Positions 42,862 through 57,528 of a DNA stretch of 64,000 nt are shown piece by piece (positions within the stretch are counted from its first letter, which is position 1; each line of letters opens with the position of its first letter). Origin of the DNA: Pigmentiphaga kullae (GTDB lineage: Bacteria > Pseudomonadota > Gammaproteobacteria > Burkholderiales > Burkholderiaceae_B); contig NZ_SGXC01000001.1 of the NCBI RefSeq assembly GCF_004216695.1, positions 806,001-870,000 of the forward strand, read 5' to 3'. The notes below the pieces were generated by a model. That model worked only from the letters and a program-made list of their open reading frames with translations, was not told the origin of the DNA and did no database searches. Made by a program: the position numbers and the translations under genes.

Positions 42862-44091
42862 CTACGCGGCGGGCGGCACGAGACGCTGGATGGCTTCGTC
42901 GCTCAGGCCCAGGTAGTCGCGCAGCACGGCTTGCGTGTCCTGCCCCAGCAGCGGCGGCGCGTGGCGGTATTGCACCGGCGTGTCGGACAGGCGCAGCGGG
43001 CTGGCGACGGAAGGCGCCGTGCCCGCCAGCGGATGCGGCAGGTCCAGGCGCAGGCCGCGGGCCTGGACCTGGGGATCGTCGAAGGCCTGCTCGATGGTGT
43101 TGATGGGGCCGCAGGGCACGCCCACGGCTTCCAGCCGCTCCAGCCAGTAGTCGCGCGGCTTCTTTTCCATGATCCCGGCCAGGATGGGCACCAGCCGGTC
43201 GCGGTTGATGACGCGGTTGCTGTTGATGCTGTAGTCGGGGTGGTCGGCCAGGTCCGGCGCCTCCAGCACGCCGCAATAGGCGCGGAACTGGCCGTCGTTG
43301 CCCACGGCGACGATCAGGTGGCCGTCGGACGCCGCGAACACCTGGTAGGGCACGATGTTCTGGTGGGCGTTGCCGGCCCGCTGGGGCGCGGCGCCCGAGG
43401 TCAGGTAGTTCAGCGCCTGGTTGCCCAGCATGGCCACCACGGTGTCCAGCAGCGCGATGTCAAGGTGCTGGCCCAGGCCGCTGCGCTGGCGTTCCTGCAG
43501 CGCGGCCAGGATGCCCACCGTCGCGTACATGCCGGTCAGGATGTCGGCCACGGCCACGCCGGCCTTCTGCGGGCCGGCGCCCGGCAGGCCGTCGCGCTCG
43601 CCGGTGATGCTCATGAAGCCGCCCAGCCCCTGGATCATGAAGTCGTAGCCGGGGCGGCTGGCGTAGGGGCCGGTCTGGCCGAATCCGGTCACCGAGCAAT
43701 AGATCAGGCGCGGGTTCGCTTCCTTGAGCGAGGCGTAGTCCAGCCCGTACTTCGCCAGCCCGCCGACCTTGAAGTTCTCGATCAGGATGTCGCTTTGTGC
43801 GGCCAGTTCGCGCACCAGCCGCGCGCCTTCGGGCGTGGCGATGTCCAGCGCGACCGAACGCTTGTTGCGGTTGACGCTGAGGTAGTAGGCGGCCTCGGCC
43901 GTATCCCGGCCCTGGCTGTCCTTCAGGAACGGCGGCCCCCAACTGCGCGTGTCGTCGCCCGCTCCCGGCCGCTCGATCTTGATCACCTCGGCGCCCAGGT
44001 CGGCCAGGTTCTGGGTACACCAGGGTCCGGCCAGGACGCGAGTCAGGTCCAGGACACGGATGCCGGCCAGGGGAGAAGTGCGTGCTGTCAT
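42862..44091 (-). CDS. CaiB/BaiF-family CoA transferase
   Basis: This 409-residue class III CoA transferase has the N-terminal LAGIRVLDLTRVLAGPW, the KIERPGAGDDTR nucleotide region, and the catalytic aspartate in SRPGYDFMIQGLGG near residue 165. The family moves CoA between acyl-CoA and a free acid, often succinyl-CoA, oxalate or aromatic acids. It is divergent from the Bug protein gene at 44295, a common pair in Alcaligenaceae. The acid substrate is unknown. Confidence 0.92.
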   Translation of the reverse strand: MTARTSPLAGIRVLDLTRVLAGPWCTQNLADLGAEVIKIERPGAGDDTRSWGPPFLKDSQGRDTAEAAYYLSVNRNKRSVALDIATPEGARLVRELAAQSDILIENFKVGGLAKYGLDYASLKEANPRLIYCSVTGFGQTGPYASRPGYDFMIQGLGGFMSITGERDGLPGAGPQKAGVAVADILTGMYATVGILAALQERQRSGLGQHLDIALLDTVVAMLGNQALNYLTSGAAPQRAGNAHQNIVPYQVFAASDGHLIVAVGNDGQFRAYCGVLEAPDLADHPDYSINSNRVINRDRLVPILAGIMEKKPRDYWLERLEAVGVPCGPINTIEQAFDDPQVQARGLRLDLPHPLAGTAPSVASPLRLSDTPVQYRHAPPLLGQDTQAVLRDYLGLSDEAIQRLVPPAA

Positions 44092-44294
44092 GCTTTGCTC
44101 GAATTCGCGTGAAGGAAGGACAAGACCGCGGGGCCGGCGAATGCCGGGCAGTCCATAAGCTTACCGCAGGGGCGCGCCGTCACAAGTCGTGATGCCCCCA
44201 TTCACGCCAGGTGATTACGCCGCAGAAAGGGTCCTCGTATGCTGGCCCGACGCCAGGGACCGCCCGGTCTCCGGTCAACCAGAACGGAGGAGAC

Positions 44295-45272
44295 ATGCAT
44301 CGCCACCCGCTCATACCGGCCGCGTGGATCGCGGCCGCATTCGCCTGCGCCCTGCCGCCGCTGGCCGCTGCCCAGGACATTCCACGCAAGTCGATCACAC
44401 TGGTCGTCGGCTTCGCGCCCGGCGGCGGCGCCGACACCGCGGCCCGCCTGATCGCCAGGAAGCTGTCGGAAAACCTCGGCCGGCCGGTGGTGGTCGAGAA
44501 CAAGGCCGGCGCCGGCGGCAACATCGCCCACGACCTGGTGGCGCGCGCCGAGCCCGACGGCGCCACCATCCTGCTCGGATCGATCGGCCCGCTGGCCATC
44601 GCGCCCCACCTGATGAAGCTGCCCTACGATCCGGCCAGGGACCTGGCGCCCATCACCATGGGCGTCAACTTCCCCAATGTGCTGGTGGCCTATGCCGGCC
44701 TGGGCGTCAAGACGCTGAACGACTACATCGAGATGGCGAAAAAGCATCCCGAGAAGATGAGCTATGCCTCGACCGGCGCCGGCTCGGCTTCGCACCTGGC
44801 GGGCGAACTGCTCAACCAGCGCGCCGGCGTGAACGTCGTCCACGTGCCTTACAAGGGCGGCGCGCCGGCCATGGTGGATCTGCTGTCGGGGCGGGTCGCC
44901 TCGTATTACTCCACGCCCTCCTCGGCCCAGCCCCACATCGAGACCGGCAAGGTGGTCGCCATCGCCACGACCGGCCTGAAGCGCCCGGCCTTCATGCCCG
45001 ACGTGCCGACCATCGCGGAGTCCGGCATTCCCGGCTTCAATGCCACCAACTGGTACGCGTTCGTTGCGCCGGGCAAGACGCCGGCCGGGATACTCGATCG
45101 CTGGAACGAGGAAATCGTGAAGGTGCTGAAGGATCCCGACGTCTCGGCACAGTTGATCAAGCACGGGCTGACGCCGGATCCTATGAGCCGCGAGGAACTC
45201 GCCCGGTTCATCGCCGACGAATCGGCCACGTGGGGCGCGATCATCAAGGAGCGCCACATCACCGCGCAATAG
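44295..45272 (+). CDS. Bug-family (TctC-like) periplasmic solute-binding protein
   Basis: This 325-residue protein has a Sec signal (about residues 1-27, ending AAAQD), then PRKSITLVVGFAPGGGADTAAR, the N-terminal loop that binds the carboxylate in Bug proteins, and the later VPTIAESGIPGFNATNWYAFVAPGKTP block. Bug proteins bind dicarboxylates, aromatic acids or amides and often work with tripartite tricarboxylate transporters; no TctAB genes are in the window. GGAGGAG precedes the ATG. It is divergent from the CoA transferase. Confidence 0.92.
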   Translation: MHRHPLIPAAWIAAAFACALPPLAAAQDIPRKSITLVVGFAPGGGADTAARLIARKLSENLGRPVVVENKAGAGGNIAHDLVARAEPDGATILLGSIGPLAIAPHLMKLPYDPARDLAPITMGVNFPNVLVAYAGLGVKTLNDYIEMAKKHPEKMSYASTGAGSASHLAGELLNQRAGVNVVHVPYKGGAPAMVDLLSGRVASYYSTPSSAQPHIETGKVVAIATTGLKRPAFMPDVPTIAESGIPGFNATNWYAFVAPGKTPAGILDRWNEEIVKVLKDPDVSAQLIKHGLTPDPMSREELARFIADESATWGAIIKERHITAQ

Positions 45273-45339
45273 CTTCGCCCCTCTCCCTCCTCGATATCCC
45301 GCGCTTGCCGTCGGTGCCCGACCGGCTCATAATAGCTAG

Positions 45340-45355
45340 TAGTATAGTTTACTAT
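45340..45355. promoter_or_regulatory. Inverted repeat before the second Bug gene
   Basis: TAGTATAGTTTACTAT (45340-45355) holds two overlapping inverted repeats, TAGTA-N5-TACTA and ATAGT-TT-ACTAT. It lies about 70 bases before the TTG start at 45426 in an AT-rich pocket. Size and symmetry fit an operator of a GntR-type dimer; two UTRA-type GntR genes are nearby. Confidence 0.4.
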
Positions 45356-45425
45356 CACATTAAACCGAGCAACCGGGCAGGCACCCGGCCGCCCGCGCGT
45401 CGAGCGACGCATCGAGGAGACAAGC

Positions 45426-46400
45426 TTGAAACCCAGCCTATCGTGTGGCCTGGCCGCGGCGAGCCTGGCGCTGGCCGGCATCCAGGCCGCCCATGCCGAC
45501 GACTTTCCCGCGCGCCCCATCCGCCTCGTCACCCCCTACCCGGCCGGCCTGACGCCGGATGTCGCCACGCGCATCATGGCCGAAAAGCTGGGCAAGCTGT
45601 GGGGCAAACCCATCGTGATCGAGGCCAAGCCGGGCGCCAACGGCTTTCTGGCACTGGGCGCCGCCAAGCAGGCCGCGCCCGACGGCTATACCCTGCTGGT
45701 CGTGGGCGACGCGCACATGACCACCAATCCCAAACTGCTGGCGTCGGTTCCCTACGATCCGCAGAAGGACTATGCGCCGGTGTCGATGTTCTTCCGCGCG
45801 CCCTTCCTGTTCTACACGTCCGCCGCGGCGCCCTATGCGTCGATGCGCGACCTGATCGAAGCGGCCCGCAAGGACCCGAAGAAGATCACCTACGGCACCC
45901 CCTACGTGGGCAGCCCCGCCCACTTCGGCGGCGCCATCCTGGCCCAGGCCACGCGCACCGAGATGATGCCGGTCCACTACAAGGAAGGCGCGCAGATCTA
46001 CACGGCGGTCGCCAACGGCGACATCAGCTTCAGCGTGGCCACCATCGGCTCGGGCCTGCCGCTGGTCAAGGCCGGCAAGCTGAAGATGCTGGCCACCGCG
46101 TCGCCGCAGCGGCTGGCCGACTACCCGCAGGTGCCCACCGTGAAGGAATCCGGTGGTCCGGACCTGGCCATCGAGACCTGGGTGGGCCTGGTGGCGCCGG
46201 CCGGCACGCCGCCCGCCGTGGTGCAGAAGCTCAACGCCGGCATCGCGCAGGTGCTGAAGGATCCGGAACTGATCGAGAAGTTCGCGGCGCTGGGCATCGA
46301 ACCGCAAAGCAGCACGCCGGCCGAGCTGTCCACGCGCGTGCGCGATGAGCTGGCCGAGGTGGAAACGCGCATCAAGCGGCTGGGCATCAGCATCGAATAG
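45426..46400 (+). CDS. Bug-family periplasmic solute-binding protein, TTG start
   Basis: This 324-residue Bug protein has a signal peptide (residues 1-24, ending AHAD), then FPARPIRLVTPYPAGLTPD and the conserved PTVKESGGPDLAIETWVGLVAPAGTPP. The start is a TTG at 45426 with AGGAGAC six bases upstream; no in-frame ATG lies close. It follows the first Bug gene by 153 bp in the same direction and may bind a related acid. It converges on the GntR gene at 46431. Confidence 0.92.
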   Translation: MKPSLSCGLAAASLALAGIQAAHADDFPARPIRLVTPYPAGLTPDVATRIMAEKLGKLWGKPIVIEAKPGANGFLALGAAKQAAPDGYTLLVVGDAHMTTNPKLLASVPYDPQKDYAPVSMFFRAPFLFYTSAAAPYASMRDLIEAARKDPKKITYGTPYVGSPAHFGGAILAQATRTEMMPVHYKEGAQIYTAVANGDISFSVATIGSGLPLVKAGKLKMLATASPQRLADYPQVPTVKESGGPDLAIETWVGLVAPAGTPPAVVQKLNAGIAQVLKDPELIEKFAALGIEPQSSTPAELSTRVRDELAEVETRIKRLGISIE

Positions 46401-46430
46401 CCCGCCGTGGGCGGCGGCCGGCCGCCGCCG

Positions 46431-47204
46431 CTATTTCAGCCGCATGTGCACCCGCACGAAGTCGCTGCGGAACAGGCCCTGGGATTCATAGACCAGGACC
46501 TCGTCCTTGTCGAACACCGAGCGGGTGACCACCATGATGGCGGTGTTCACCGGCACGTCCAGCAGCTGCGCCACCTCGAAGTCGGCGTTGCTGGCCTGGA
46601 TGGTCTGCTCGGCCCGGCCGATGCGCTCGCCCGCGTGGTTCTGTATCAGCTGCATGGGCACGGGCGAATTGAACGCCTTCTTGCCGATGGCCCGGAAGAT
46701 CGTGCGCTCCACGTACGAATCGCCCACGAAATACGGAATCTGGTTGTGCTTCTGCAGCCGGCGCAGGTGCTGGTAGCCGTCGGGCGACAGCGAGCCGCCG
46801 TGGTGGTTGATCGACTGCGGCCGCATGACGGTGCTGCTTTCCAGCCATTCGATCTGGATGTCGGGCACGTGGTTGACCAGCGTGTCCCAGCTGGTCGGGA
46901 TGTCGTAGAAGACGCCGCTTTGCGGCCGGCGCAGGACGAAGGTGCCGCGGCCGCGATAGCGGCCGATCAGCCCTTCGGATTCCAGGAAACCGATGGCGTG
47001 GCGGATGGTGGCGCGCGCCACGCCTTCGTCGCGGGCCAGTTCGTCCAGCGACGGGATCTGCTGGTCCACCGCCCACTCGCCCGTCTCGATGCGCCTCCTG
47101 AAGGACATCACCAGCTTCACGTAGATGGGCGTCCCCACCTGCGCCAGGTTCGCGATGGCGGTCGACGGCGTCGTGCGGGTGGCGCGGGGCGGAGGCAGCG
47201 TCAT
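46431..47204 (-). CDS. GntR-family regulator with UTRA domain (first copy)
   Basis: This 257-residue HutC-subfamily protein has an N-terminal winged HTH (about residues 25-90, with PSLDELARDEGVARATIRHAIGFLE) and a C-terminal UTRA ligand domain (about 110-255). It is clearly a paralogue of the regulator at 47796: both end in GLFRSDFVRVHMRLK or GVFRGDFVEIHTDLK and share the PSLDEL and RGRGTFVL blocks. A CATTCTAT half-site 31 bp before its start matches the arms of the inverted repeat before hyuA, suggesting autoregulation and control of that operon. Confidence 0.9.
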   Translation of the reverse strand: MTLPPPRATRTTPSTAIANLAQVGTPIYVKLVMSFRRRIETGEWAVDQQIPSLDELARDEGVARATIRHAIGFLESEGLIGRYRGRGTFVLRRPQSGVFYDIPTSWDTLVNHVPDIQIEWLESSTVMRPQSINHHGGSLSPDGYQHLRRLQKHNQIPYFVGDSYVERTIFRAIGKKAFNSPVPMQLIQNHAGERIGRAEQTIQASNADFEVAQLLDVPVNTAIMVVTRSVFDKDEVLVYESQGLFRSDFVRVHMRLK

Positions 47205-47234
47205 GAGGCGGGATGTGCTGGTTGACTAGCCTTT

Positions 47235-47242
47235 CATTCTAT
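47235..47242. promoter_or_regulatory. CATTCTAT half-site upstream of first UTRA regulator
   Basis: CATTCTAT occurs 31 bp before the start of the GntR gene at 47204 and equals the left arm of the inverted repeat at 56286-56315. An octamer can match by chance, so this is weak alone. Confidence 0.3.
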
Positions 47243-47320
47243 CAGTGGCCTGTCCCGCGATAGGCGGCGCGGATGGTGGGCTATAGTCGGTGCTCTTCCG
47301 GCAACAAGCATCGCCCCCGC

Positions 47321-47788
47321 ATGAGTCTCGAATCCGTCCGCCATTTCCTGGCCGCCCACGCGCCCGACATCGCCATCATCGAACTCGAACACAGCACCGC
47401 CACCGTCGAACTGGCCGCGCAGCACCACGGCGTCGCCCCCGGCCAGATCGCCAAGACGCTGTCGCTGCGGGCGGGCGACCGTGAGGTGCTGCTCGTGACG
47501 CGCGGCGACGCCAGGCTGGACAACAAGAAGGCCAAGGCCGTGTTCGGCGGACGCGTGAAGATGCTGCCGGCCGACGAAGTGGCTGCCGTGACGGGGCACC
47601 CGGTAGGCGGGGTCTGCCCGTTCGGCCTGGCCACGCCGCTCCCGGTGTATTGCGACGTCTCGCTGCGGGCCTACGACGAAGTGCTGCCCGCGGCGGGCTC
47701 CACGCACAGCGCCGTTCGCATCGCGCCGCTGCGCCTGGCCGAGCTGGTCGGCGCGCAGTGGGTGGACGTCAGCCAGGAAGCGGCCTGA
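47321..47788 (+). CDS. YbaK/EbsC-type aminoacyl-tRNA deacylase
   Basis: This 155-residue single-domain protein has the YbaK-like order: STATVELAAQHHGVAPGQIAKTL, the lysine-containing DARLDNKKAK, and GHPVGGVCPFGLA near residue 95. The family hydrolyses mischarged aminoacyl-tRNAs such as Cys-tRNA(Pro). It stands between the two UTRA regulators on the opposite strand and converges on the second. It seems unrelated to the catabolic genes. Confidence 0.9.
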   Translation: MSLESVRHFLAAHAPDIAIIELEHSTATVELAAQHHGVAPGQIAKTLSLRAGDREVLLVTRGDARLDNKKAKAVFGGRVKMLPADEVAAVTGHPVGGVCPFGLATPLPVYCDVSLRAYDEVLPAAGSTHSAVRIAPLRLAELVGAQWVDVSQEAA

Positions 47789-47795
47789 CGCGCTC

Positions 47796-48569
47796 CTATT
47801 TCAGATCGGTGTGGATCTCGACGAAGTCGCCGCGGAAGACGCCCAGCGATTCGTAGACCAGCACGCCCTTGTGGTCCAGCACGGAACGCGTCACCTGGAT
47901 GACGGGTGCGCCCGAGGTCAGGTCCAGCAGGCGGGCGGTGTCGAGGTCGGCCACGCTGGCGCGCACCGTCTGCTCGGCATGGCCGACGCCGCCCGGCAGG
48001 CGGGCGTCGAGGATCTTCAGCGGAATGGGCTTGGCCAGCACGTCGGCGCCGAAGGCGGCATAGACGTTCTTCTCGATGTAGGTATGGCCGATGCCGTAGG
48101 GAATGTGATGGCGCAGCAGGCGCCGCTTGAGCGCCTGGTAGGACTCGCCCAGCGCGGCCCCCGCGTGCACCGAGGCGGGAGGCTGCGCGCACTCGTGGCT
48201 TTCCAGCCATTCGACCTCGATGTCGGGCTGCGGGCCGGTAAGTTCGTCCCAGTTCATCGGGATGCGATACCAGATGTTGGACTGGGGACGCGCCAGCACG
48301 AAGGTACCGCGGCCGCGGAAACGGCCGACCAGCCCTTCGGCCTCGAGCATGCCCAGCGCGTGCCGCACCGTGACCCGCCCCACGTCGAACTCTTCCATCA
48401 GCTCGTCCAGCGACGGAATGCATTCGTTCAACGGCCAGACGCCATTCTCGATGCGCTGGCGGAACAGCGCGAAGAGCTGCGCGTACATCGGCAGCCCGCC
48501 GCGCGGGCCGGTGTTGGCGGCGCGCGCGGAGGTGTCGGAAGCGTCGGTAGTGGGTCGTGCGGATGCCAT
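47796..48569 (-). CDS. GntR-family regulator with UTRA domain (second copy)
   Basis: This 257-residue HutC-type regulator has a winged HTH at about residues 25-92 (PSLDELMEEFDVGRVTVRHALGMLE) and a UTRA domain at about 115-257. It lies 98 bp after the RidA gene on the same strand and may be the last gene of the hyuA operon. It is a diverged copy of the regulator at 46431 with conserved ends and DNA-binding core. Ligand unknown. Confidence 0.9.
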   Translation of the reverse strand: MASARPTTDASDTSARAANTGPRGGLPMYAQLFALFRQRIENGVWPLNECIPSLDELMEEFDVGRVTVRHALGMLEAEGLVGRFRGRGTFVLARPQSNIWYRIPMNWDELTGPQPDIEVEWLESHECAQPPASVHAGAALGESYQALKRRLLRHHIPYGIGHTYIEKNVYAAFGADVLAKPIPLKILDARLPGGVGHAEQTVRASVADLDTARLLDLTSGAPVIQVTRSVLDHKGVLVYESLGVFRGDFVEIHTDLK

Positions 48570-48667
48570 GGAGCGAATCACCTGCGGCGGATGGCCAGTC
48601 TCGCGCCCCGGGGCGCAAACGCCTATTGTGCCGGGGCGCGGCGGGCGCTGGCAATCGAGCCGTCCCG

Positions 48668-49063
48668 TCACGGCGCCAGCGCGATCACGTCCAGCGCATA
48701 GTGGGCGTTGCCGCCGGGCGCCCCATTGGCATCCGCGACGCCCACGGCGATGCGCGCGGGCGGGTCCTTCGGGAAGAATTCCATCCACGCCTGATGGAAG
48801 CTCTTGCGCTTGTCCAGGTCATGCAGATAAAGCGTGACCTTCACCACGTGCCGGAGCGTCGCCCCCGACGCCGCCAGCACCGCCTCGACATTGCGCAGCG
48901 CCTGGCAGGCCTGTTCGTAGGGGTCGTCGGGCATGCGGCCGGTGGCCGGATCGCGGCCGCGTATGGCCGACAGGAACAGGAAACCTCCGGCCCGCACGCC
49001 GGGCACCATGCCAGCCATGCGGTCGGGCGCGTCCGGCGACTGCGGCATGCTCTGCCTATCCAT
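48668..49063 (-). CDS. RidA/YjgF-family deaminase
   Basis: This 131-residue RidA-family protein has GGFLFLSAIRGRDPATG, the EQACQALRNVEAVLAASGATLRHVV core and the substrate-binding arginine in PPARIAVGVAD. The glutamate typical of true RidA (EIEAIA) is replaced (ALDVIA). Family members hydrolyse enamines or imines; 2-aminomuconate deaminase of aromatic amine degradation is also in this family. It overlaps the hydrolase upstream by eight bases, so a step in the same pathway is likely. Confidence 0.88.
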   Translation of the reverse strand: MDRQSMPQSPDAPDRMAGMVPGVRAGGFLFLSAIRGRDPATGRMPDDPYEQACQALRNVEAVLAASGATLRHVVKVTLYLHDLDKRKSFHQAWMEFFPKDPPARIAVGVADANGAPGGNAHYALDVIALAP

Positions 49064-49919
49064 TCAGGAACTCCCGGATGATGGCGGCGGCGCGGTCCGG
49101 CGCGTCGGTCTGCACCTGGTGGCCGGCCCCGGGCACCCATTCTATGCGCGCGTCGGGCAGCATCTCGGCCAGCGCACGGCCGGTGGCGGGCACGGCGAAG
49201 GTATCTTCCTCGCCCCACAGGATCAGGGTCGGGATGCGCCGCGTCAGCGCGGGCAGCGCTTCCTGCCATTGGGTCTGGAGCTTGAGCACCGGGTCGTTGC
49301 GCACGAAATCGATGCCCTGCGCCATGCGCTGGAAGGCCTCGAACGCGCCGGGGCGCGTGGCGGCGCGCTGGCGATCGTCGATCAGCGCGTCGGTGATGCG
49401 CGACTTGTCGATGATCAGCGCCTCCAGCAGGCGCTTCATGCCGGCACGCGAACCGTCGTAGCCCATCAGCGCATGCATGGCCTCGTTCGGCGCCTGCTTG
49501 ATCCCCAGCGAGCCGGCGATGGTGAGCGAGGACACGATGACCAGCTTCTCGACGCGGTCCGGGTGCAGCATGGCGTAGTACACGCCAGACCACGCGCCCT
49601 GCGAATTGCCTAGCACCGAGAATTTGTCCAGGCACAGCGCATCGACGAAATCGGCGGTGTGCGCGGCGCGGCTGATCAGCCCGTAGGGGGTGGGCGCCTG
49701 CGTGTCCGTCAGGCCGAAGCCGCCGATGGAATCGGGCGCGACCACGCGAAAGTCCTTGCCCAGCAGCGGCAGCACCAGGCCCATGCCCGAGGCGCCGGAC
49801 GAGCCCGCGCCGCCGCCGTGCAGCGCCACCAGCGTGCGGCCCTGGTCGCCCGCTTCCGCGTAGTGCGTGCGCACGCCGTTGGCCAGTACCCAGCGCGATC
49901 GAATTGCCGTGTCATTCAT
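49056..49919 (-). CDS. Alpha/beta hydrolase of the meta-cleavage product type
   Basis: This 287-residue protein has the oxyanion segment LHGGGAGSSGASG near residue 34, the nucleophile elbow GNSQGAW near 105, an acid in WGEEDTFAVP and the histidine in GAGHQVQTDAPD. HGGGAG and GNSxGA are typical of BphD/MhpC hydrolases, which split ring-fission products at a C-C bond; NicD-type deformylases are related. It follows the extradiol dioxygenase by 54 bp, which fits hydrolysis of its product. Confidence 0.88.
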   Translation of the reverse strand: MNDTAIRSRWVLANGVRTHYAEAGDQGRTLVALHGGGAGSSGASGMGLVLPLLGKDFRVVAPDSIGGFGLTDTQAPTPYGLISRAAHTADFVDALCLDKFSVLGNSQGAWSGVYYAMLHPDRVEKLVIVSSLTIAGSLGIKQAPNEAMHALMGYDGSRAGMKRLLEALIIDKSRITDALIDDRQRAATRPGAFEAFQRMAQGIDFVRNDPVLKLQTQWQEALPALTRRIPTLILWGEEDTFAVPATGRALAEMLPDARIEWVPGAGHQVQTDAPDRAAAIIREFLNG

Positions 49920-49973
49920 GGTCGATGTCTCCAGTCGAAGAGATGGGCCCCGCCCGTCGCGGGGTCCGCTTGC

Positions 49974-51119
49974 TCAGTTGCCGTGCCGCGGCACCAGCCC
50001 GCGGTCGTGGTAGGCCTGCACGTAGCGCAGCCCCAGGGTGCCGGCGAAATTGCGGATCAGGAGCGGATGCACGCCCCACTCGTACAAGGTGGCCAGGTCG
50101 CGCTCGCGCAGGACGCGCCGCTCCTCGTCGTCCAGCGCATGGCCGTCGAAGGCGCCGGCGGCGTCGGCCTTCAGCGCCTCTTGCAGCGCCTGTTCCTTGT
50201 CGAAGCGGAACAGGTAGCGCTCCAGCGCGTGCCGGTCGCGCCCCGCCGCGCTGGCGTGCCCGGGCGCGGCCGCGCGCGCGTTTCCGGGCGGCAGCAACAG
50301 TTCGGTCACGCCTATCCCGGTCACCCAGGCCTGCACCGGTTCGTAGGCCGCCACCCGCGCGCCGGTGGCCCGGGCCGCGCCCGCCGCCAGCAGCCAGTTG
50401 CGGATCTCGGCCGCGCCGTTGCCGGCGCTGCGCACCACCTCCGCCGCATCCCAGCCGGCGATCTCGTCGAACCGGCCGGCGGCGAAACCTTCCAGGAAAC
50501 GGCGGTCGAAGTCGCGGTTGATGTGGCCGGTCTCGGGCATGCCGACCCAGTGGCTCAGGCCGCCGGTGCCGAGCACGGCCACGCGCGGCGCCAGTTCCTG
50601 CATGCGCAGCACCTCGCCCAGCGCGCGGCCGAAGTCCAGGCAGCGGTCCAGGCGCGGCAGCGGCTCGATGGTGCAGTTCACGTACACCGGCAGCACCGGC
50701 ACGTCCCAGCCGTCCAGCAGTAGTTGCAGCGGGCACGAGAAGCTGTGGTCCAGCGGCAGTCCGCGCGCGCCGGCCGCATCGAAGCCGGCCGCCACCATGC
50801 CCGCGTGCACCGCTTCGCCCAGGCCGGCCACGCCGGTGTAGTCGCGCTTGGGCACGCCGAATTCCCCATGCCCGGGAAACGCCGTGCCGGTGCCGATGGC
50901 GAACACCGGCAACGCGGCCTGGTCGAAGGTCAGGAAATGGTCGGTGGCCACCACCACCAGCACGTCCGGGCGTGCCGCCCTGAGCGAGGCGGACAGGGCC
51001 GCGAAGGCCTGGAACACCCGGTCGGCGCGCGCCAGGTCGTCCGGATCGCCCTTGGGCGTGCGCATCATGGCGCCGGTATGGGCCGTGGCGGCGGCCCAGA
51101 CGATCTCGCCCATGCCCAT
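49974..51119 (-). CDS. Fused LigB-LigA class III extradiol dioxygenase
   Basis: This 381-residue protein combines a LigB catalytic domain (about residues 1-270) and a LigA-like domain (about 285-380). Likely iron ligands and acid-base residues are His14 in ATAHTGAMM, the histidines in ATDHFLTF and LDHSFSCP, and the catalytic histidine in GTGGLSHWVG, with ETGHINRDFD after it. The C-terminal part has the LigA pattern ALERYLF...LYEWGVHPLLIRNFAG. Fused forms include gallate dioxygenase (about 420 residues), but this one is shorter and divergent. ATG 51119 has GGGGG about ten bases upstream; GTG 51125 overlaps the previous stop. Confidence 0.87.
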   Translation of the reverse strand: MGMGEIVWAAATAHTGAMMRTPKGDPDDLARADRVFQAFAALSASLRAARPDVLVVVATDHFLTFDQAALPVFAIGTGTAFPGHGEFGVPKRDYTGVAGLGEAVHAGMVAAGFDAAGARGLPLDHSFSCPLQLLLDGWDVPVLPVYVNCTIEPLPRLDRCLDFGRALGEVLRMQELAPRVAVLGTGGLSHWVGMPETGHINRDFDRRFLEGFAAGRFDEIAGWDAAEVVRSAGNGAAEIRNWLLAAGAARATGARVAAYEPVQAWVTGIGVTELLLPPGNARAAAPGHASAAGRDRHALERYLFRFDKEQALQEALKADAAGAFDGHALDDEERRVLRERDLATLYEWGVHPLLIRNFAGTLGLRYVQAYHDRGLVPRHGN

Positions 51120-51121
51120 GG

Positions 51122-51880
51122 TCACGCCCCCTCGTCCAGGTGACGGCGCAGGAAGTCCACGAAGCGCTCGTAGGTCAGCGCGGCCGCCTCGGGCGAATAG
51201 CGCTCCAGCGTGCTGTCCATGTAGGCATGGCGCGCACCGGGGTAGACGTGGAACGAGATCGGCGCGGGCGCATGCGCTTCCAGCGCCTCCTTCAACGCCA
51301 GGGTCTGGTCCATGGGAATGGCTTCGTCGGCCGCGCCGAAATGCAGCTGCATGGGCGCCTGGATGCGCGGCGCCAGCGCGATGCGTGAGCGGTCCTGGCC
51401 GTCGGGCGAATAGGCGGCCGGCACCACCGGCAGCGCGTACAGCACCACCGAGCAGGCCAGGTCGCGCGTGTCGGCCGCCCAGGCCAGCACCGTGCCGCCG
51501 CCCAGGCAATAGCCCAGCGCGCCGATGCGGCCCACCCGGGGCTGCGTGCGCAACCAGGCCAGCGCCGCCTGGCAGTCGGGCACCACGACCTCGTCGCGGG
51601 CGGCAATGAAGGCCTTGCTGCGCCGTTCCTCGGCGGTGGTGTAGTCCTGCGGCGGCCGGCCGCCGATGCGGCTGTACGGATCCACGGTCAGGACGATGAA
51701 ACCCTCGGCCGCGAGGCGCCGCGTTTCCTCCTGGCGATGCTCGGTCACCCCCAGGTTCTCGGGCGCGCAGACCACCGCGCCCAGCACGTCGTCGCCCTCG
51801 GGCTCGGCCAGGTAGCCGCGCACCTGGTCGCCGCCGCTGGGAAAGGTCACCCAGCGGCCATGGCTGGTTCGCTTGCTCAT
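51122..51880 (-). CDS. Dienelactone-hydrolase-family protein
   Basis: This 252-residue alpha/beta hydrolase has the DLH nucleophile cysteine in GYCLGGG near residue 123, an acid in FGAADEAIP and the histidine in GARHAYMDS. Dienelactone hydrolases open lactone rings in aromatic degradation; related proteins act on other esters. GGAGG precedes ATG 51880. The stop overlaps the possible GTG start of the dioxygenase, tying it to the ring-cleavage step. Confidence 0.88.
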   Translation of the reverse strand: MSKRTSHGRWVTFPSGGDQVRGYLAEPEGDDVLGAVVCAPENLGVTEHRQEETRRLAAEGFIVLTVDPYSRIGGRPPQDYTTAEERRSKAFIAARDEVVVPDCQAALAWLRTQPRVGRIGALGYCLGGGTVLAWAADTRDLACSVVLYALPVVPAAYSPDGQDRSRIALAPRIQAPMQLHFGAADEAIPMDQTLALKEALEAHAPAPISFHVYPGARHAYMDSTLERYSPEAAALTYERFVDFLRRHLDEGA

Positions 51881-51891
51881 CGATGCCTCCT

Positions 51892-54078
51892 TCAGGCCGC
51901 GACCTGGATGTCGAACAGGGATGCCTCGCCCTTGCGGCGCACCTCGACGTCGAGCAGCGTGGCGCAATGCGGGCAGGCGTGCTGGACGACCTCGAGATCG
52001 TGGTGGATGCGCACGCGCGGCCCCAGGTCCTCGGGTGTGGCGAGGTGGTGGCGCGCGTAGTCCTTCCAGTTCTCCGCCGCCGGCGCGATGGCGGTATCGC
52101 AGCTGTTGCAGACCAGGTAGGGCGTGCCGGCCGCGCGCACGATGCGCGCCACGTCGCCGACGATGGCCACGGGCTCGGCCTGCGCCGTCTGCGGACTCCC
52201 GTCCAGCGCCTTGCCGGCGGGCCATGCCAGCCGGCACTGGCGGATCGCCGCGCGCGCGGCGGCGGTGGCCGCCTCGTCCAAGGTTCCGCCCTTGGTCACC
52301 ACGCCGAAGATGTGCTCGGCCACACGGGCCGAGAAGGCCCCGGCCGCGACATCCGCCGCCACGCTGTCGGCCGGCCGGCCCAGCGGATCGCCCCAGCCGC
52401 CGCCGGCCGTGGGATTGCATTCGTAGACGTCGTCCTTGCCGAACTCGAACTCCGGCGGCTTGGCGTTGAACTCGACTTCCTCGCCTTGCAGCCTGTCCAT
52501 GCGGTCGGGGAACACGCCGTCGGCCAGCAGTTGGCGGATGTTGCTGTGGCGCAGGAAGCGGCGATGGTTGCAGCCACTGGGATAGCCGCCGAACAGGCCG
52601 CGCGAGGTGGGCGACTGGTAGCCGTGGCAGGCGACCAGCGATTCGACCTCGTCCACGCCGTGCAGCACGAAGGCCGCTCCGGCGGCCTGGCCGCCCACGT
52701 TGCGGCCGGCGCCCGAGCTGTCGGTGATGATGCGGCGGTACATGTACAGCACCGGCAGCTTCAGCTCGGTGGTCTCGACGTTGGGCGCGCGGCCGGCGGT
52801 GATGTTGCGCTGGCCCGAGACGCTCACGCCGTCGCGGTGCGCATAGGCGCCGCCGCCCGACAGCATCACTTCCAGGATGGGCGCGGTGGCCGGTTCGCCG
52901 TACTGGTTGCGGCCATGGATGTGGAACAGGTCCGGTCCGCTGGCCGGCGACGACTGCGCCTCGGCCAGGTAATCCGGATGCGTGGCCATCAGCTTGGAGA
53001 TGACCTCGGTGGTGGTGACCTCGACCAGCCACATCGCACCCAGCGGCCCCTGGCTGCACGGCGCGGGGAACTTGCACGAGACGATGGAACCTTCCGTGGA
53101 CAACACTTCCAGCGGCCGCAGCAGGCCCTCGTTCCACGGCAGGTCGTAGGCGATGACAGGCAGGATGCCGGCGTAGACCCCCGCCAGCAGACCCGTGCGC
53201 GTCGCGTTGACGAAGCCTGGCGCCTGCGGGTCGGACCCGGTGTAGTCGAATACGATGCGGTCGCCCTGCTTGCGCAGCTCGACGTGGATCTTGTAGATCT
53301 TGTTGTCGAAGCCGTCGTGGTCCAGGAAGGCCTGGGCGCGGAACACGCCGTCGGGCAGTTCCTTCAGGCGTTTGCGCATCTTGGTCTCGGACAGGCTCAT
53401 CATGCCGTCCATCACCGTCAGCACCGTGTCCACGCCGTACTTGGCGATGGTGTCGAGCAGGCTCTTCACGCCGATGTTGTTGGCCGCCATCAGACCCTTC
53501 AGGTCCAGGCTGATGTTGGTGGGCAGGCGCGACATGCCGGTGATGAAGTTCAGCACGTCGCTGCGCAGCTCGCCGCGGTCGATGATCTTGACCGGCGGAA
53601 TCAGCATGCCTTCCTGGCGGATGTCCTTGGCCATGGAAGCGAAGCTGCCCGGCACCATGCCGCCCACGTCCAGCTGGTGGGCGCAGGCGCCGGTCCAGCC
53701 GATGCGCCTGCCGTCGACGAAGATGGGCGCCAGCACACCCACGTCCGGGCAATGCAGCGCACCCTTGTGCGGGTGGTTGACGATGAACATGTCGCCCGGG
53801 TTGATGCCGACGGAGTCCTCGCAATCCTCGATCACGTGCTTGACCATCAGCGACAGCGAGGCTGCGTGGAAGGTCACCGTCTTGCCCATGGTGACCACTT
53901 CGCCGAAGGCGCGGTAAAGGCCGGTGTTGAAATCGGTCGCCTCGTTCACCAGCGCCGACCCCGACACCGAGGCCAGCGTGGCCGCCTGTTCGTCGGTGAT
54001 CGACAGCAGCCGGTGGCGGATCACCTCGAAGGTGATCGGGTCGACCTCCTTGGCCGTGTATTCGTAGACCTGATGCAT
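51892..54078 (-). CDS. HyuB-type hydantoinase/carboxylase B subunit with acetone-carboxylase-gamma-like tail
   Basis: This is a 728-residue protein. Residues about 12-560 form the HyuB domain (EVIRHRLLSITDEQAATL, the NPGDMFIVNHPHKGALHCPDVGV block, and GGGGWGDP-like AGGGWGDPLGRP). Residues about 610-728 form an added domain with Cys pairs CNSC and CPHC and WKDYARHH, resembling the gamma subunit of acetone carboxylase, probably zinc binding. HyuA/HyuB enzymes use ATP to hydrolyse cyclic amides (hydantoin, oxoproline, caprolactam) or carboxylate ketones such as acetophenone; the tail favours the carboxylase side. It lies 16 bp after hyuA. Confidence 0.88.
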   Translation of the reverse strand: MHQVYEYTAKEVDPITFEVIRHRLLSITDEQAATLASVSGSALVNEATDFNTGLYRAFGEVVTMGKTVTFHAASLSLMVKHVIEDCEDSVGINPGDMFIVNHPHKGALHCPDVGVLAPIFVDGRRIGWTGACAHQLDVGGMVPGSFASMAKDIRQEGMLIPPVKIIDRGELRSDVLNFITGMSRLPTNISLDLKGLMAANNIGVKSLLDTIAKYGVDTVLTVMDGMMSLSETKMRKRLKELPDGVFRAQAFLDHDGFDNKIYKIHVELRKQGDRIVFDYTGSDPQAPGFVNATRTGLLAGVYAGILPVIAYDLPWNEGLLRPLEVLSTEGSIVSCKFPAPCSQGPLGAMWLVEVTTTEVISKLMATHPDYLAEAQSSPASGPDLFHIHGRNQYGEPATAPILEVMLSGGGAYAHRDGVSVSGQRNITAGRAPNVETTELKLPVLYMYRRIITDSSGAGRNVGGQAAGAAFVLHGVDEVESLVACHGYQSPTSRGLFGGYPSGCNHRRFLRHSNIRQLLADGVFPDRMDRLQGEEVEFNAKPPEFEFGKDDVYECNPTAGGGWGDPLGRPADSVAADVAAGAFSARVAEHIFGVVTKGGTLDEAATAAARAAIRQCRLAWPAGKALDGSPQTAQAEPVAIVGDVARIVRAAGTPYLVCNSCDTAIAPAAENWKDYARHHLATPEDLGPRVRIHHDLEVVQHACPHCATLLDVEVRRKGEASLFDIQVAA

Positions 54079-54094
54079 GCTCGTCTCGATAGCG

Positions 54095-56188
54095 TTATTG
54101 GTTGCGCGCGATGGAAATCACGAAGTTGCCGTAAGGCTCCATTTCGACCGACTGGTCCGGGCCGACGACGATGGTGGTGTCGGGCCGCTCGATGATGCAG
54201 GGGCCCGCGATGGCATGGCCGGGACCCACGTCCTCGCTGCGGTAGATGTCGGCGCGGATGAAGCCGTGGCCGTAGAAATAGACCTGGCGGTCGGACACCG
54301 GCCGGTTCGAGCGGCCGGCGCCCTCGACCTGGCGCGCCGCCGGCTTGATGACCGGGGACGTGCCCTCGACCCGCACCACGGTGAACTCCACGCCCGAACT
54401 GCGCAGCGCGGTGTTCTTGCCGTAGATGCGCTCGTACTGCGCCTCGAAGGCATCGACCAGCGCGTCCACGTCGGCGGCCTGGAGCTGCCCGGCCGGCACC
54501 TCGACGCCGATCTCGTGCACCTGCTGGCGGAACCGCATGCCGATGTAGCGGTGGATGGTGACGTCGTCGCCCAGCGCTTCGCGCGCCCGGGCCTCGATCT
54601 GGCCGAAGCCCTCGTTCAGGGCGGCGATGTCGATGTGCTCGGACGCGCGCTTGAAGCGCGCCGGCGCGTGCTGGCCCACCGCCAGCGAGAACGAGCGGTG
54701 GCGGTCGCCCGTGACCGTGCCGTAGGCCGAGTGCGCCGGCCCGGTGTTGGGCACGACCACCTTGCCGATGCCGGCCACCTCGGCGTACTGGTGCGCGTGC
54801 GTGGCGCCCGCGCCGCCGTAGGCCATCAGCACGAAGTCGCGCGGATCGTAGCCGGCGCGCAGCGTGACCCGGCGCAGCAGGTCCGCCATCTGGTTGTTGG
54901 CCACCTCGCGGATGCCCGCGGCCGCCTCTTCCACGCTCATGCCCAGCGGCTCGGCCACGTACTTGCGCACGGCTTCGCGCGCGGCCTCGACGTCCAGCGC
55001 CATGCGCCCGCCCAGGAAGTAGCGCGGATCGATGATGCCCAGCACCACGTCGGCGTCGGTGATGGTCGGCTCGACTCCGCCGCGGCCATAGCACGCCGGC
55101 CCCGGCGTGGAACCCGCGCTTTCCGGGCCCACGGTCAGGTGGCCGTCGCGCACGCGGGCGATCGAGCCGCCGCCCGCGCCGATGGCCGTGACCTTGATCG
55201 ACGGCAGCGCCACGTGGAAACGGCCCACTTCGCGCACGGTTTCCAACAGCGGCTGGCCTTCCACGATCAGGCCCACGTCGAAGCTGGTGCCGCCCATGTC
55301 GGCGGTCAGCACGTTGCGGTAGCCCAGCAGGTCGCCCAGTTTCTGCGACGCCAGCACGCCGCCGGCCGGACCCGAGGTCAGCAGGTTGGCGGCCTGGAAC
55401 GCGGCCTCGGCCGCGGGCAGCACGCCGCCGCCCGATTCCATGATGGAGATCGGCCCCTGGAAGCCGAAACGCCGGATCGCTCCTTCCAGCCCATTGATAT
55501 AGCGGTGGATGACCGGCCCCAGGTAGGCGTTGATCGACGTGGTCGAGGTGCGCTCGTATTCGCCGATGATGGGCACCAGCAGCGAGGACGTCGTCACGAA
55601 CAGCCCTGGCGCCTCTTCCTCCACCAGCTCGGCCAGGCGCCGCTCGTGCGCCGGGTTGCGGAACGACCACAGCAGGCTGATGGCGATGGCCTCGACGCCC
55701 GCGTCGCGCAGTTCGCGTATGGCCTGGCGCGCCGCCGCCTCGTCCAGCGGCACGATGACCTCGCCCTTGTAGTCCACGCGCTCGGCCACGCCCTTGATCA
55801 GGTCCAGCGGCACGATGGGCTCGGGCACGCGGCGCTTCGAGAAATGCGAGATTTCGTGCGTGGGCATGCCGATCCAGCCGCCCATGGCGCGCTGGATGCG
55901 CAGCGTGTCCTCGAAGCCACGGGTGGTCAAGAGCCCCGTTTTCGCGCCCTTGCGTTCGATGAACGCATTGGTCGCGGCGGTGGTGCCGTGCGAGAAGTAT
56001 TTCAGTTCGGCCACCAGCCGGTCGGCCGGGATGCCCAGTTCCTCGGCCGCCAGTTTCATGGCGTCCAGCACGCCGCGCGTGCGGTCGTCGGGCGTCGTCA
56101 GCGCCTTGAAGATGCGCACGTCGCCGTCGTCGGACAGAAGAACGAGGTCGGTGAACGTCCCTCCGATATCCGTACCTATGTAAGACAC
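54095..56188 (-). CDS. HyuA-type ATP-dependent hydantoinase/carboxylase A subunit
   Basis: This 697-residue protein has the actin-like ATPase signature IGTDIGGTFTDLVLL at the N terminus, DMGGTSFDVGLIVEG near residue 290 and AYGGAGATHAHQYAEVAG near 455, the markers of HyuA, 5-oxoprolinase and acetophenone-carboxylase alpha-type subunits. It starts with GTG at 56188, with GGAGG about nine bases upstream. It is the first gene of the operon hyuA-hyuB-DLH-ligBA-hydrolase-ridA(-gntR), and the palindrome at 56286-56315 lies about 100 bp before it. Confidence 0.92.
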   Translation of the reverse strand: MSYIGTDIGGTFTDLVLLSDDGDVRIFKALTTPDDRTRGVLDAMKLAAEELGIPADRLVAELKYFSHGTTAATNAFIERKGAKTGLLTTRGFEDTLRIQRAMGGWIGMPTHEISHFSKRRVPEPIVPLDLIKGVAERVDYKGEVIVPLDEAAARQAIRELRDAGVEAIAISLLWSFRNPAHERRLAELVEEEAPGLFVTTSSLLVPIIGEYERTSTTSINAYLGPVIHRYINGLEGAIRRFGFQGPISIMESGGGVLPAAEAAFQAANLLTSGPAGGVLASQKLGDLLGYRNVLTADMGGTSFDVGLIVEGQPLLETVREVGRFHVALPSIKVTAIGAGGGSIARVRDGHLTVGPESAGSTPGPACYGRGGVEPTITDADVVLGIIDPRYFLGGRMALDVEAAREAVRKYVAEPLGMSVEEAAAGIREVANNQMADLLRRVTLRAGYDPRDFVLMAYGGAGATHAHQYAEVAGIGKVVVPNTGPAHSAYGTVTGDRHRSFSLAVGQHAPARFKRASEHIDIAALNEGFGQIEARAREALGDDVTIHRYIGMRFRQQVHEIGVEVPAGQLQAADVDALVDAFEAQYERIYGKNTALRSSGVEFTVVRVEGTSPVIKPAARQVEGAGRSNRPVSDRQVYFYGHGFIRADIYRSEDVGPGHAIAGPCIIERPDTTIVVGPDQSVEMEPYGNFVISIARNQ

Positions 56189-56285
56189 GAGTCTTTCCTC
56201 CAGATGCCGCCCCGGTGGGCGATCGTTCCCCGGCACACGGCCGCTGCGCGGCCGCATCCGAATCTGGCGCTATTAGAACCCGAAA

Positions 56286-56315
56286 AACATTCTATGTATA
56301 GAACTATAGAATGTT
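56286..56315. promoter_or_regulatory. 30-bp inverted repeat, likely operator of the hyuA operon
   Basis: AACATTCTAT (56286-56295) and ATAGAATGTT (56306-56315) are perfect 10-bp inverted repeats around a 10-bp spacer that itself continues the ATAG/CTAT pattern. It lies in an AT-rich stretch about 100 bp before the GTG start of hyuA. A GntR/HutC-type dimer or tetramer site is the most likely reading. Confidence 0.6.
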
Positions 56316-56381
56316 AAAAGACTAGGTAATTACCCTTTATAAAAAGAGGGAAACGTTAAACCATCCATTGAATCAAGATGG

Positions 56382-57438
56382 TCAGGATTGTTCGTCTGGC
56401 TGCCGCTGTTCGATCTGCAATCGCGCCCGTTCAATCGCCTGCTGCAACCGCTCGCCCAGCACCGCGCGCGGCGGCAAGGTGGTCAGGTACTCCGCGACGT
56501 GGATACCTGATTTGTCCAGCTCCAGTAACTCGATCTGTTCGCGTTTCTTGCCAGTGCAAAGAATGATTCCGAGTGGCGAGGCTTCCTCCGGCTCGCGTTC
56601 ATGCTTATCGAGCCAGCGCAGATAAAGCTCCATCTGCCCTTTGTATGTGGCCTTGAATTCGCCGATCTTTAATTCGACGGCCACTAGCCGGCGCAGTTTA
56701 CGGTTGTAGAACAACAGATCCAGATGGAAATCCTCATCGTCGATCTGAATGCGCTTTTGCCGTGCGAGAAAGGAGAAACCTGCGCCCAGTTCCAATAGGA
56801 AGGCCTCCATTTCACGGGTGACCGCAGCCTCCAGATCACTTTCCTGCCAGCTATCCCGCAGCCCTAGAAAATCAAGAATGTATGGATCACGCATGATCAG
56901 AGAGGGTGACATGCGCTGGGCATTTCGCAAGGTTGCCAGCTCTTTCGCGATCGTCTCGACCGGCTTTTGGGACAATGCTGTACGCTCGTATAGCATCGAA
57001 TCGATGCGTTCGCGCAGCGTGCGTACACTCCAGCGTTCGGCTCCCGCCATCTGCGCGTAGTAGTCCCGCTGCATTGGCTCTTTGAGCACCAGCAACAGGA
57101 CAAAGTGCGACTAACTCAATTGTCGCGACAATTGATTCATCCGGAAACGTGGCAGCGAACTTGACCATGCGGCGCAAGTTCTTCTCCCCGAAGCCCCGCC
57201 CGTAGTCGCGGGCAAGCTGCTCGGCCAGGGACGGCATGATTTCCTCTCCGTACCCGGCCCGCTGGCCGGCCAGCACTTCTGTGTAGATACGATAGCCAAT
57301 GCGCCAAAACAGCAGGGTCAGCTCGGCATTGATTGCCAAGGCGGCGCGACGACGCGACGCCTCGATCAGTGCTCGAATGTCGCCCAGCAGCGCCGACGGC
57401 GCTGCTAATGACGATGCGGATACCTTACGCCCGGCCAT
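56382..57438 (-). pseudogene. Broken DUF1016 (YhcG-type) PDDEXK nuclease gene
   Basis: Two frames together make a DUF1016 protein. The N-terminal part from ATG 57438 carries the DUF1016 helical domain (GFGEKNLRRMVKFAATFPDESIVAT); the C-terminal part (56382-57095) has the PDDEXK nuclease core, FHLDLLFYNRKLRRLVAVELKIGEF. Between them the expected LSRQLSW-SHF stretch is in a third frame with TAG where TGG is expected (57112-57114), and about 11 bases seem lost near the 20-bp palindrome at 57116-57135. So the gene has a frameshift and a nonsense codon. Lower GC than its neighbours suggests transfer. The C-terminal nuclease domain could still be made from an internal start. Confidence 0.82.
57116..57135. 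repeat. Perfect 20-bp palindrome at the frameshift of the DUF1016 gene
   Basis: The 20-bp sequence TCAATTGTCG-CGACAATTGA is its own reverse complement. It sits exactly where the reading frame is lost. It probably arose when a short repeated segment collapsed (inference from the expected protein sequence). Confidence 0.8.
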
Positions 57439-57528
57439 ACTTGCGCCTCCACCGTGCACCTAAATTATTTGATACCCCTGCCGTATCAAGCTGTGGCGTA
57501 GCCCAGCCCAGCACCAAGCTGAAACCAT

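Follow-up and report, generated by a model that had tools for sequence, protein, structure and literature searches.

Background

Aerobic carboxylation of a ketone by an enzyme of the HyuA/HyuB family is already known from the acetophenone carboxylase of Aromatoleum aromaticum, which this organism uses both aerobically and anaerobically (PMC4729919; like the other papers discussed here, it is cited from excerpts). The authors who described the hydroxyphenylethanone (Hpe) pathway in Rhodococcus rhodochrous GD02 were aware of no other aerobic route for the breakdown of aromatics that includes a carboxylation (PMC9618137), a view that PMC4729919 contradicts in the case of acetophenone. A third system is the ARO microcompartment locus of Actinobacteria, whose HyuAB its authors leave unexplained in the excerpted text while suggesting that it has an upstream role (PMC10470539). 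Here we describe a six-gene operon of Pigmentiphaga kullae that joins HyuA and HyuB to enzymes of aromatic ring cleavage. It occupies positions 48668-56188, minus strand, of a stretch of 64,000 nucleotides (the window: assembly GCF_004216695.1, contig NZ_SGXC01000001.1, positions 806,001 to 870,000) from a genome of 6.2 Mb.

We believe this operon is a real, conserved and uncharacterised pathway. Its key feature was overlooked by the earlier sequence-only reading of this DNA: HyuB ends in a domain like the γ subunit of the ketone carboxylases. According to the excerpts of PMC5214803, γ is found in acetone and acetophenone carboxylases (Acx and Apc) and in no hydantoinase complex. We tentatively read the operon as a pathway for the aerobic breakdown of some hydroxylated aromatic, for which an aryl (methyl) ketone is the likeliest choice, by way of carboxylation, a dienelactone-hydrolase-type step, extradiol ring cleavage and C-C hydrolysis.

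The operon

The first gene encodes HyuA (54095-56188), the ATP-binding alpha subunit, with a GTG start behind TGGAGGAAAG. HyuB-γ (51892-54078) is the metal-binding beta subunit with the zinc-finger γ-like domain fused at its C-terminus. Next come DLH (51122-51880), a member of the dienelactone-hydrolase family (PF01738, 126.7 bits) with the Cys-type nucleophile motif GYCLGG, and LigBA (49974-51119), a class III extradiol dioxygenase with fused LigB and LigA domains (PF02900 and PF07746). The last two genes encode an enzyme like the meta-cleavage-product (C-C) hydrolases (49056-49919), recognised by its PDB matches and its nucleophile, acid and His motifs (GNSQG, WGEED and GAGHQ), and a RidA/YjgF-family protein (48668-49063; PF01042, 75.3 bits). 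All six lie head to tail on the minus strand, as the sequence-only reading had it, and the gaps from hyuA to ridA are 16, 11, 2, 54 and -8 nt. Pfam confirms the identities, with Hydantoinase_A (three domains), Hydantoinase_B, DLH, LigB and LigA in one open reading frame (ORF), Abhydrolase and Ribonuc_L-PSP each above its cut-off.

That reading also took the genes for a single catabolic operon and proposed a search for the set in other genomes. The search bears this out, since the full set recurs within Pigmentiphaga and its core on a Niveispirillum plasmid. The six genes and a GntR-type regulator (GntR1) stand in identical order in all seven distinct Pigmentiphaga loci examined (the window, L030-L033, L048 and L051; L061-L064 repeat L030-L033 and are not counted again). 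HyuB, LigBA and RidA are each found in 7 of the 11 genomes, the same seven every time. Because the same genes and regulator recur in every distinct locus of the genus, this is not a chance neighbourhood. Taken with the short gaps and a conserved promoter-operator, the conserved order and the joint presence and absence make it almost certain that the six genes form one functional unit. The fusion of LigB and LigA, which the earlier reading named, holds for the window but is not universal, because L048 and the Niveispirillum locus (L029) have two separate genes.

The γ-like domain of HyuB

HyuA is 697 aa long (PF05378, PF01968, PF19278) and has DIGGTFTD at residue 7, DMGGTSFD at 297 and GSTPGP at 359, the ASKHA ATP-binding motifs of hydantoinase and ketone carboxylase alpha subunits (PMC8453981). 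HyuB is 728 aa long and matches PF02538 at 412.9 bits; its D49, H109, D112 and H134 align with the metal ligands named for CapB in the same paper, an Asp-His-Asp-His site. The family domain ends near residue 565. The last 100 residues hold a four-Cys zinc finger (CNSC ... CPHC), and it is here, at about 51904-52143 on the minus strand, that the acetone-carboxylase-γ-like domain (PF08882) is found.

Several searches agree on this assignment. PF08882 matches the genome once in six frames, in the HyuB tail, where its 21.7 bits just exceed the cut-off of 21, and hmmscan gives the tail alone 23.1 bits. Since there is this one match, the other six of the seven HyuB proteins that the genome encodes (seven places match Hydantoinase_B) have no γ detectable by the model. 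A phmmer search of the tail against the PDB (E <= 10) returns acetone carboxylase γ only, as two sequences with E 0.026 and 0.092. A profile of six tails reaches the acetophenone carboxylase small subunit at 4.3e-5 and acetone carboxylase γ at 9e-5 and 1e-4, with the next match at 0.14. A predicted structure of the tail was too poor for use (mean pLDDT 45). From these sequence comparisons we consider the γ domain very probably real.

The HyuA tree and the neighbours of γ-bearing relatives

The tree of HyuA proteins gives a view of the same question from a different subunit. In a tree of 26 rows, one branch (100/98) parts the 19 γ-bearing rows from the 7 γ-less ones; all 200 bootstrap trees (100%) contain it, and none of 500 shuffles was as low. 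The window's HyuA is on the γ side with Apc and Acx, whose γ labels were taken from PMC5214803, and caprolactamase and N-methylhydantoinase are on the γ-less side. The window's HyuA does not group with Apc or Acx themselves. An earlier tree of 19 rows agrees.

A γ profile finds the domain, fused or as an adjacent gene, in 14 of 15 HyuAB loci, with L057 the miss and a weak signal in L050 (E 0.029). The sequences behind this profile came from the window, L029 and L047, the last two being among the 15 scanned, and L030 and L048 are near-copies of the window. The plasmid records chosen first mostly covered the tail or carried a γ match, and seven extra plasmid loci are a fairer sample: three have γ and four do not. 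HyuB matches 24 plasmid records at E <= 1e-60, and 16 of them were examined (L029, L044-L046, L053-L057 and L070-L076, some of them through γ matches); the rest (H44, H45, H47-H51 and H53) look like near-copies of these, judging by organism and match length.

The sequence-only reading allowed either ATP-driven carboxylation or the opening of a cyclic amide. Of these two, carboxylation is favoured because of the γ domain of HyuB and because HyuA stands on the Apc/Acx side of the tree. A cyclic-amide hydrolase is thereby set back as a first choice, and we retain it as a rival. HyuAB-γ probably performs carboxylase chemistry, judging from its sequence relationships. The annotated records that we examined call this family hydantoinase or oxoprolinase irrespective of γ; if γ does mark carboxylases, this naming is misleading and the two chemistries can be told apart by a simple test.

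The neighbours of γ-bearing relatives can also be consulted. L045, L046, L054 and L055 adjoin AMP-forming (CoA) ligases and dehydrogenases (SDRs and other alcohol dehydrogenases), L053 adjoins a butanediol dehydrogenase and L044 a CoA transferase. With such ligases, dehydrogenases and transferase, these neighbourhoods fit the carboxylation of a ketone, followed in most of them by CoA activation. Two other loci link γ-bearing HyuAB to aromatic catabolism with different enzymes. L049 reads HyuA-HyuB-γ, a Pfam-unmatched protein with a GNSGG nucleophile motif seen by eye, a VOC-fold protein that no NCBIfam model matches, and an AMP ligase of the aryl-acid type, which comes closest to dihydroxybenzoyl adenylate synthase (327 bits, under cut-off). 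In L050, HyuA-HyuB and the weak γ read into a Rieske oxygenase, for which anthranilate dioxygenase is the closest match (430 bits, under cut-off). The γ-like stretch and the Rieske alpha subunit there share one ORF (L050:7004-8620), either by a frameshift or as a true fusion.

Some of these relatives are worth recording in their own right. On the haloarchaeal plasmids L053, L054 and L071, HyuA-HyuB is followed by a separate gene already annotated as acetone carboxylase γ, and the L054 locus adjoins an AMP ligase and a gene of the acetoacetate-decarboxylase family; all three are candidate archaeal ketone carboxylases. In L044, from Rhodococcus pseudokoreensis, the γ-bearing HyuAB lies beside genes for HMG-CoA lyase and a degradative HMG-CoA reductase, hinting at a branched ketone as substrate.

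Ring cleavage, hydrolases and RidA

LigBA scores highest among solved proteins with the gallate dioxygenase DesB (100 bits), followed by 2,3-dihydroxyphenylpropionate dioxygenase (91.5) and LigB (81). It matches DesB at five catalytic positions and LigB at the four that the alignment covers, which we take to be metal and acid-base residues. The solved relatives that it finds at E <= 0.001 are dioxygenases of gallate, 2,3-dihydroxyphenylpropionate and protocatechuate, and no 2-aminophenol dioxygenase is among them. All ten NCBIfam matches, those for gallate, protocatechuate and 3-carboxyethylcatechol dioxygenases included, fall under their cut-offs. The predicted structure was too poor for use (mean pLDDT 36) and a scan of viral contigs gave no LigBA relative. 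The genome holds 18 matches to LigBA (E <= 0.001) and seven to Hydantoinase_B, which suggests that it is rich in aromatic degradation.

The hydrolase has its best PDB matches among the meta-cleavage-product hydrolases (E 8.9e-31 to 1.4e-29), though it does not reach the curated cut-offs for BphD and HsaD. Because these are its nearest relatives, the ring-fission product is probably a ketone, derived from a 3-substituted catechol, and for this reason an aminophenol is disfavoured. The aminophenol that the sequence-only reading had entertained also finds no support in the solved relatives of LigBA just named or in the operon, which has no aldehyde dehydrogenase. RidA keeps the conserved Arg (in PPARIAV). 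It scores 33.8 bits with 2-aminomuconate deaminase (6izh) against 60.8 with the best RidA-family chain, and reaches 69.4 of the 106.25 bits of the TIGR00004 cut-off.

The second known version of the system, on a plasmid of the alphaproteobacterium Niveispirillum cyanobacteriorum, helps to separate the core from the accessories. HyuA is 81% identical to the window's protein, HyuB 82%, DLH 72%, LigB 67% and LigA 59%. The order HyuA-HyuB-DLH is kept, so that DLH follows HyuB in both versions; among the other 14 plasmid records listed DLH identity is 30-34%, and 265 of 266 records lie below 60%. LigB is separated from DLH by two other alpha/beta hydrolases, and after LigA comes a class II aldolase. 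No RidA or GntR1 match (E <= 1e-8) was found in the 25-kb stretch. The core is thus HyuA, HyuB, DLH, LigB and LigA, without RidA. Removal of an enamine nitrogen, which the sequence-only reading had suggested as a step, finds no support as part of the core, though RidA is in 7 of 7 loci of the genus.

The gene set looks rare. In a sample of 399 genomes of the order, counting its own, LigBA has a best match elsewhere of 38% identity. HyuB is matched in 2 of 369 sampled genomes of the class at E <= 1e-120 and in 2 of 398 of the phylum at E <= 1e-110, its own genome being among them both times. In the family it is 9 of 268 at E <= 1e-120, again with the own genome counted. One search for relatives returned only close ones (4 loci).

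Proposed pathway

The pathway that we tentatively favour would run as follows. HyuA would phosphorylate the enol of the ketone and bicarbonate, and the metal site of HyuB would join them to give a beta-keto acid. DLH may then hydrolyse the carboxylation product without CoA. LigBA would open the catechol ring, and the meta-cleavage-product hydrolase would cut the ring-fission product to a hydroxypentadienoate, to be finished by general enzymes encoded at other places. One 4-hydroxy-2-oxovalerate aldolase domain is present in the genome, about 89 kb before the left end of the window. RidA could be an accessory of the Pigmentiphaga version, perhaps acting against reactive enamine, imine or enol intermediates. 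A hydroxyaryl ketone as the substrate is a working choice that we hold with some reserve.

A number of observations weigh against this scheme. The best curated models for HyuA and HyuB are those of caprolactamase (578 and 248.7 bits), although neither reaches the 1000-bit cut-off for CapA/CapB. The nearest solved chains are caprolactamase as well, by small margins (420 against 398, 392 and 386 bits for HyuA; 205 against 194 for HyuB). The curated ApcC and ApcD models give 406.5 and 213.8 of the 1500 bits at which each is cut off. At 697 aa HyuA has a hydantoinase-like length; acetone carboxylases have long alpha and beta subunits (PMC5214803 for the lengths) and a separate acxC, where here γ is fused within a HyuB of 728 aa. 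The Cap and Acx reference branches are long in the HyuA trees. PF08882 scores 18.0 bits on the whole of HyuB, below the cut-off of 21, which is why γ was absent from the first Pfam scan and why the Pfam match must be called borderline. This leaves our estimates unchanged, because the γ call rests mainly on the six-tail profile, the scan of loci and the HyuA tree. PMC5214803 holds that γ is not directly involved in carboxylation, and γ is for that reason a marker of carboxylases and not a proof.

Other difficulties come from the gene content. We annotated the surroundings from 42862 to 57459, with a look by eye at the UvrD- and PriA-like genes beyond. Among those annotated flanking genes no hydroxylase or ketone-forming gene is seen, so the surroundings do not name the substrate. 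The operon itself has neither a CoA ligase nor a thiolase, and genes for the Apc alpha' and epsilon subunits are likewise missing from it. L047, L056, L065 and L071 bear γ without genes of ketone or aromatic metabolism beside them. L047 keeps other company (aldehyde and GMC-type dehydrogenases, a sugar-type ABC importer), L056 (among cytochrome P450 genes) and L071 (beside transhydrogenase genes) give little information, and L065 is a wider stretch of the L052 place and not an additional locus. The two hydrolases on the Niveispirillum plasmid share only 27-31% identity with that of the window, and C-C hydrolysis is therefore not an orthologous core step. RidA in the Pigmentiphaga version and the class II aldolase in the Niveispirillum version are not common to both.

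Alternative explanations

The strongest of the alternatives makes use of the caprolactamase matches. It holds that HyuAB-γ is an ATP-dependent, caprolactamase-like lactam hydrolase that opens a hydroxylated N-heterocycle of the 2-oxo-quinoline type, after which LigBA and the C-C hydrolase degrade the catechol and RidA hydrolyses an imine. Caprolactamase subunits are the best curated and solved matches, RidA lies within the operon in each of the seven Pigmentiphaga genomes where it occurs, PMC8453981 describes Hyu enzymes that act as lactamases, and PMC5214803 mentions a gamma-lactamase of indoleacetate metabolism. However, the γ-like domain speaks against a lactamase, and HyuA falls outside the γ-less clade that holds both reference hydrolases. 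The Niveispirillum cluster has no RidA match, and no molybdenum hydroxylase or other N-heterocycle enzyme is found among the flanking genes annotated (42862-57459). We consider this explanation unlikely. A related candidate, a route of the 3,4-dihydroxypyridine/mimosine type, was tried and rejected. It uses the LigB-family PydA and the hydrolase PydB (PMC7356986) and would explain LigB, the hydrolase and an imine, but not HyuAB-γ or DLH.

The second alternative places HyuAB upstream of meta-cleavage, carboxylating or decarboxylating a phenol-like ring to give a catechol or aminophenol for LigBA, as has been proposed for the actinobacterial ARO locus. There HyuA/HyuB accompany a ring-opening dioxygenase, joined in one subtype by 2-aminomuconate deaminase, and the authors suggest a decarboxylating role (PMC10470539). 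We would add that a phenol is an enol, presumably the group that HyuA-type kinases phosphorylate. The operon, however, lacks the aldehyde dehydrogenase, tautomerase and decarboxylase of the ARO pathway; LigBA has no solved 2-aminophenol dioxygenase among its relatives at the threshold given above, and RidA is nearer to other RidA chains than to 2-aminomuconate deaminase. Together these make a role on a phenol-like ring very unlikely.

That HyuAB-γ and DLH are a stand-alone module for an aliphatic ketone, sharing a promoter with an unrelated ring-cleavage module so that the operon has two functions, is in our opinion hardly credible, since the close γ-bearing relatives without ring-cleavage genes (L047, L065) that speak for it are set against the occurrence of both parts together in two bacterial classes, their joint presence and absence in the genus, and the recurrence of γ-bearing HyuAB beside other aromatic-type enzymes.

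Regulation and surroundings

The promoter-operator lies at 56289-56312 on the minus strand, where the palindrome ATTCTATAGTTCTATACATAGAAT covers a sigma-70-like promoter (-35 TTAACA, 17 nt, -10 TAGAAT; score 10/12). With up to three mismatches allowed, the palindrome has one match in the window and none in shuffles. Its 24-nt stretch is invariant across the seven aligned loci of the genus and the -35 differs by one base in L030; the DNA farther upstream diverges widely. The palindrome was not found in the Niveispirillum locus. GntR1 (47796-48569, minus strand, ATG at 48569) is a GntR/HutC-type regulator (GntR and UTRA; PF00392 and PF07702) directly downstream of the operon, at the same place in 7 of 7 distinct loci. 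It is the candidate regulator of the operon, and the palindrome at the operon's single promoter is probably the target of a GntR-type repressor.

GntR1 has a paralogue, about 47% identical, at 46431-47204 on the same strand, and the two flank a YbaK-type tRNA-editing gene. Both paralogues are kept in six other loci of the genus; the YbaK gene was not found in L033. Adjoining the regulators are two TctC-type binding proteins and a class III CoA transferase (44211-46400, plus strand; 42862-44091, minus strand), and the copy number of these genes differs among the genus loci. On the other side of the operon a DUF1016/YhcG nuclease gene (56382-57459, minus strand) is split over two frames, with DUF1016_N parts in two overlapping ORFs. 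Its C-terminal part is unmatched in L030, L032, L033, L048 and L051 and has a shortened match in L031; this variable spot separates the operon from the UvrD-like gene. A PHROGs scan gave no useful match.

Comparison with known systems

The sequence-only reading knew of no described pathway with exactly this set of genes. We recognised no paper with the set in the open-access literature, most subscription journals being outside the search, so the statement holds in that form; the ARO locus is a partial precedent all the same. A broader proposal goes beyond the operon, and we offer it as doubtful but worth stating. It supposes a CoA-free aerobic route that starts from an ATP-dependent αβγ carboxylase working without biotin and carrying γ as a part of β. 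This enzyme would prime a hydroxyaryl ketone, or the phenol ring itself, for DLH-type hydrolysis, and class III cleavage would follow. If it has been joined to several kinds of aromatic-ring enzyme (LigBA, and as candidates the VOC-fold protein of L049 and the Rieske oxygenase of L050), γ-bearing HyuAB might be a general, overlooked priming enzyme for the aerobic catabolism of aromatics and a candidate answer for the HyuAB of the ARO locus. A CoA-free route of carboxylation and ring cleavage, if true, would be a new logic for degrading aryl ketones, for example those derived from lignin; it would also offer a testable hypothesis on the HyuAB of the ARO microcompartment.

The operon resembles each of the described systems in part. 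It shares with ApcABCDE of A. aromaticum the protein family, the ATP-binding alpha and metal-binding beta subunits, the γ zinc finger and, if our reading is right, the ketone chemistry. However, it has no alpha' or epsilon subunit and no benzoylacetate-CoA ligase, its γ is fused to beta, and in their stead it has DLH, an extradiol dioxygenase and a C-C hydrolase. With AcxABC it has in common the alpha-beta-γ order, the three-part make-up and the single ATP-binding subunit; it differs in the fusion of γ to beta, the shorter subunits and the ring-cleavage neighbours. The caprolactamase CapAB provides the top-scoring curated and solved relatives and has the same motifs, but CapA belongs to the γ-less clade of the HyuA tree and caprolactamase hydrolyses a lactam. 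The Hpe pathway (PMC9618137) resembles the operon, on our reading of the latter, in that it carboxylates hydroxyaryl ketones to beta-keto acids in an aerobe. It does so with the biotin-dependent HpeCBA after a separate kinase, followed by a CoA-dependent cleavage, and its enzymes are unrelated, which rules out HpeCBA of the acetovanillone pathway as a homologue. The ARO locus (PMC10470539) is like the operon in that HyuA/HyuB occur together with a ring-opening dioxygenase, to which one subtype adds a deaminase. It has shell proteins, a 2-aminophenol/catechol dioxygenase and an aldehyde dehydrogenase, none of which is seen among the genes at 42862-57459, whereas the Pigmentiphaga operon has DLH and a meta-cleavage-product hydrolase.

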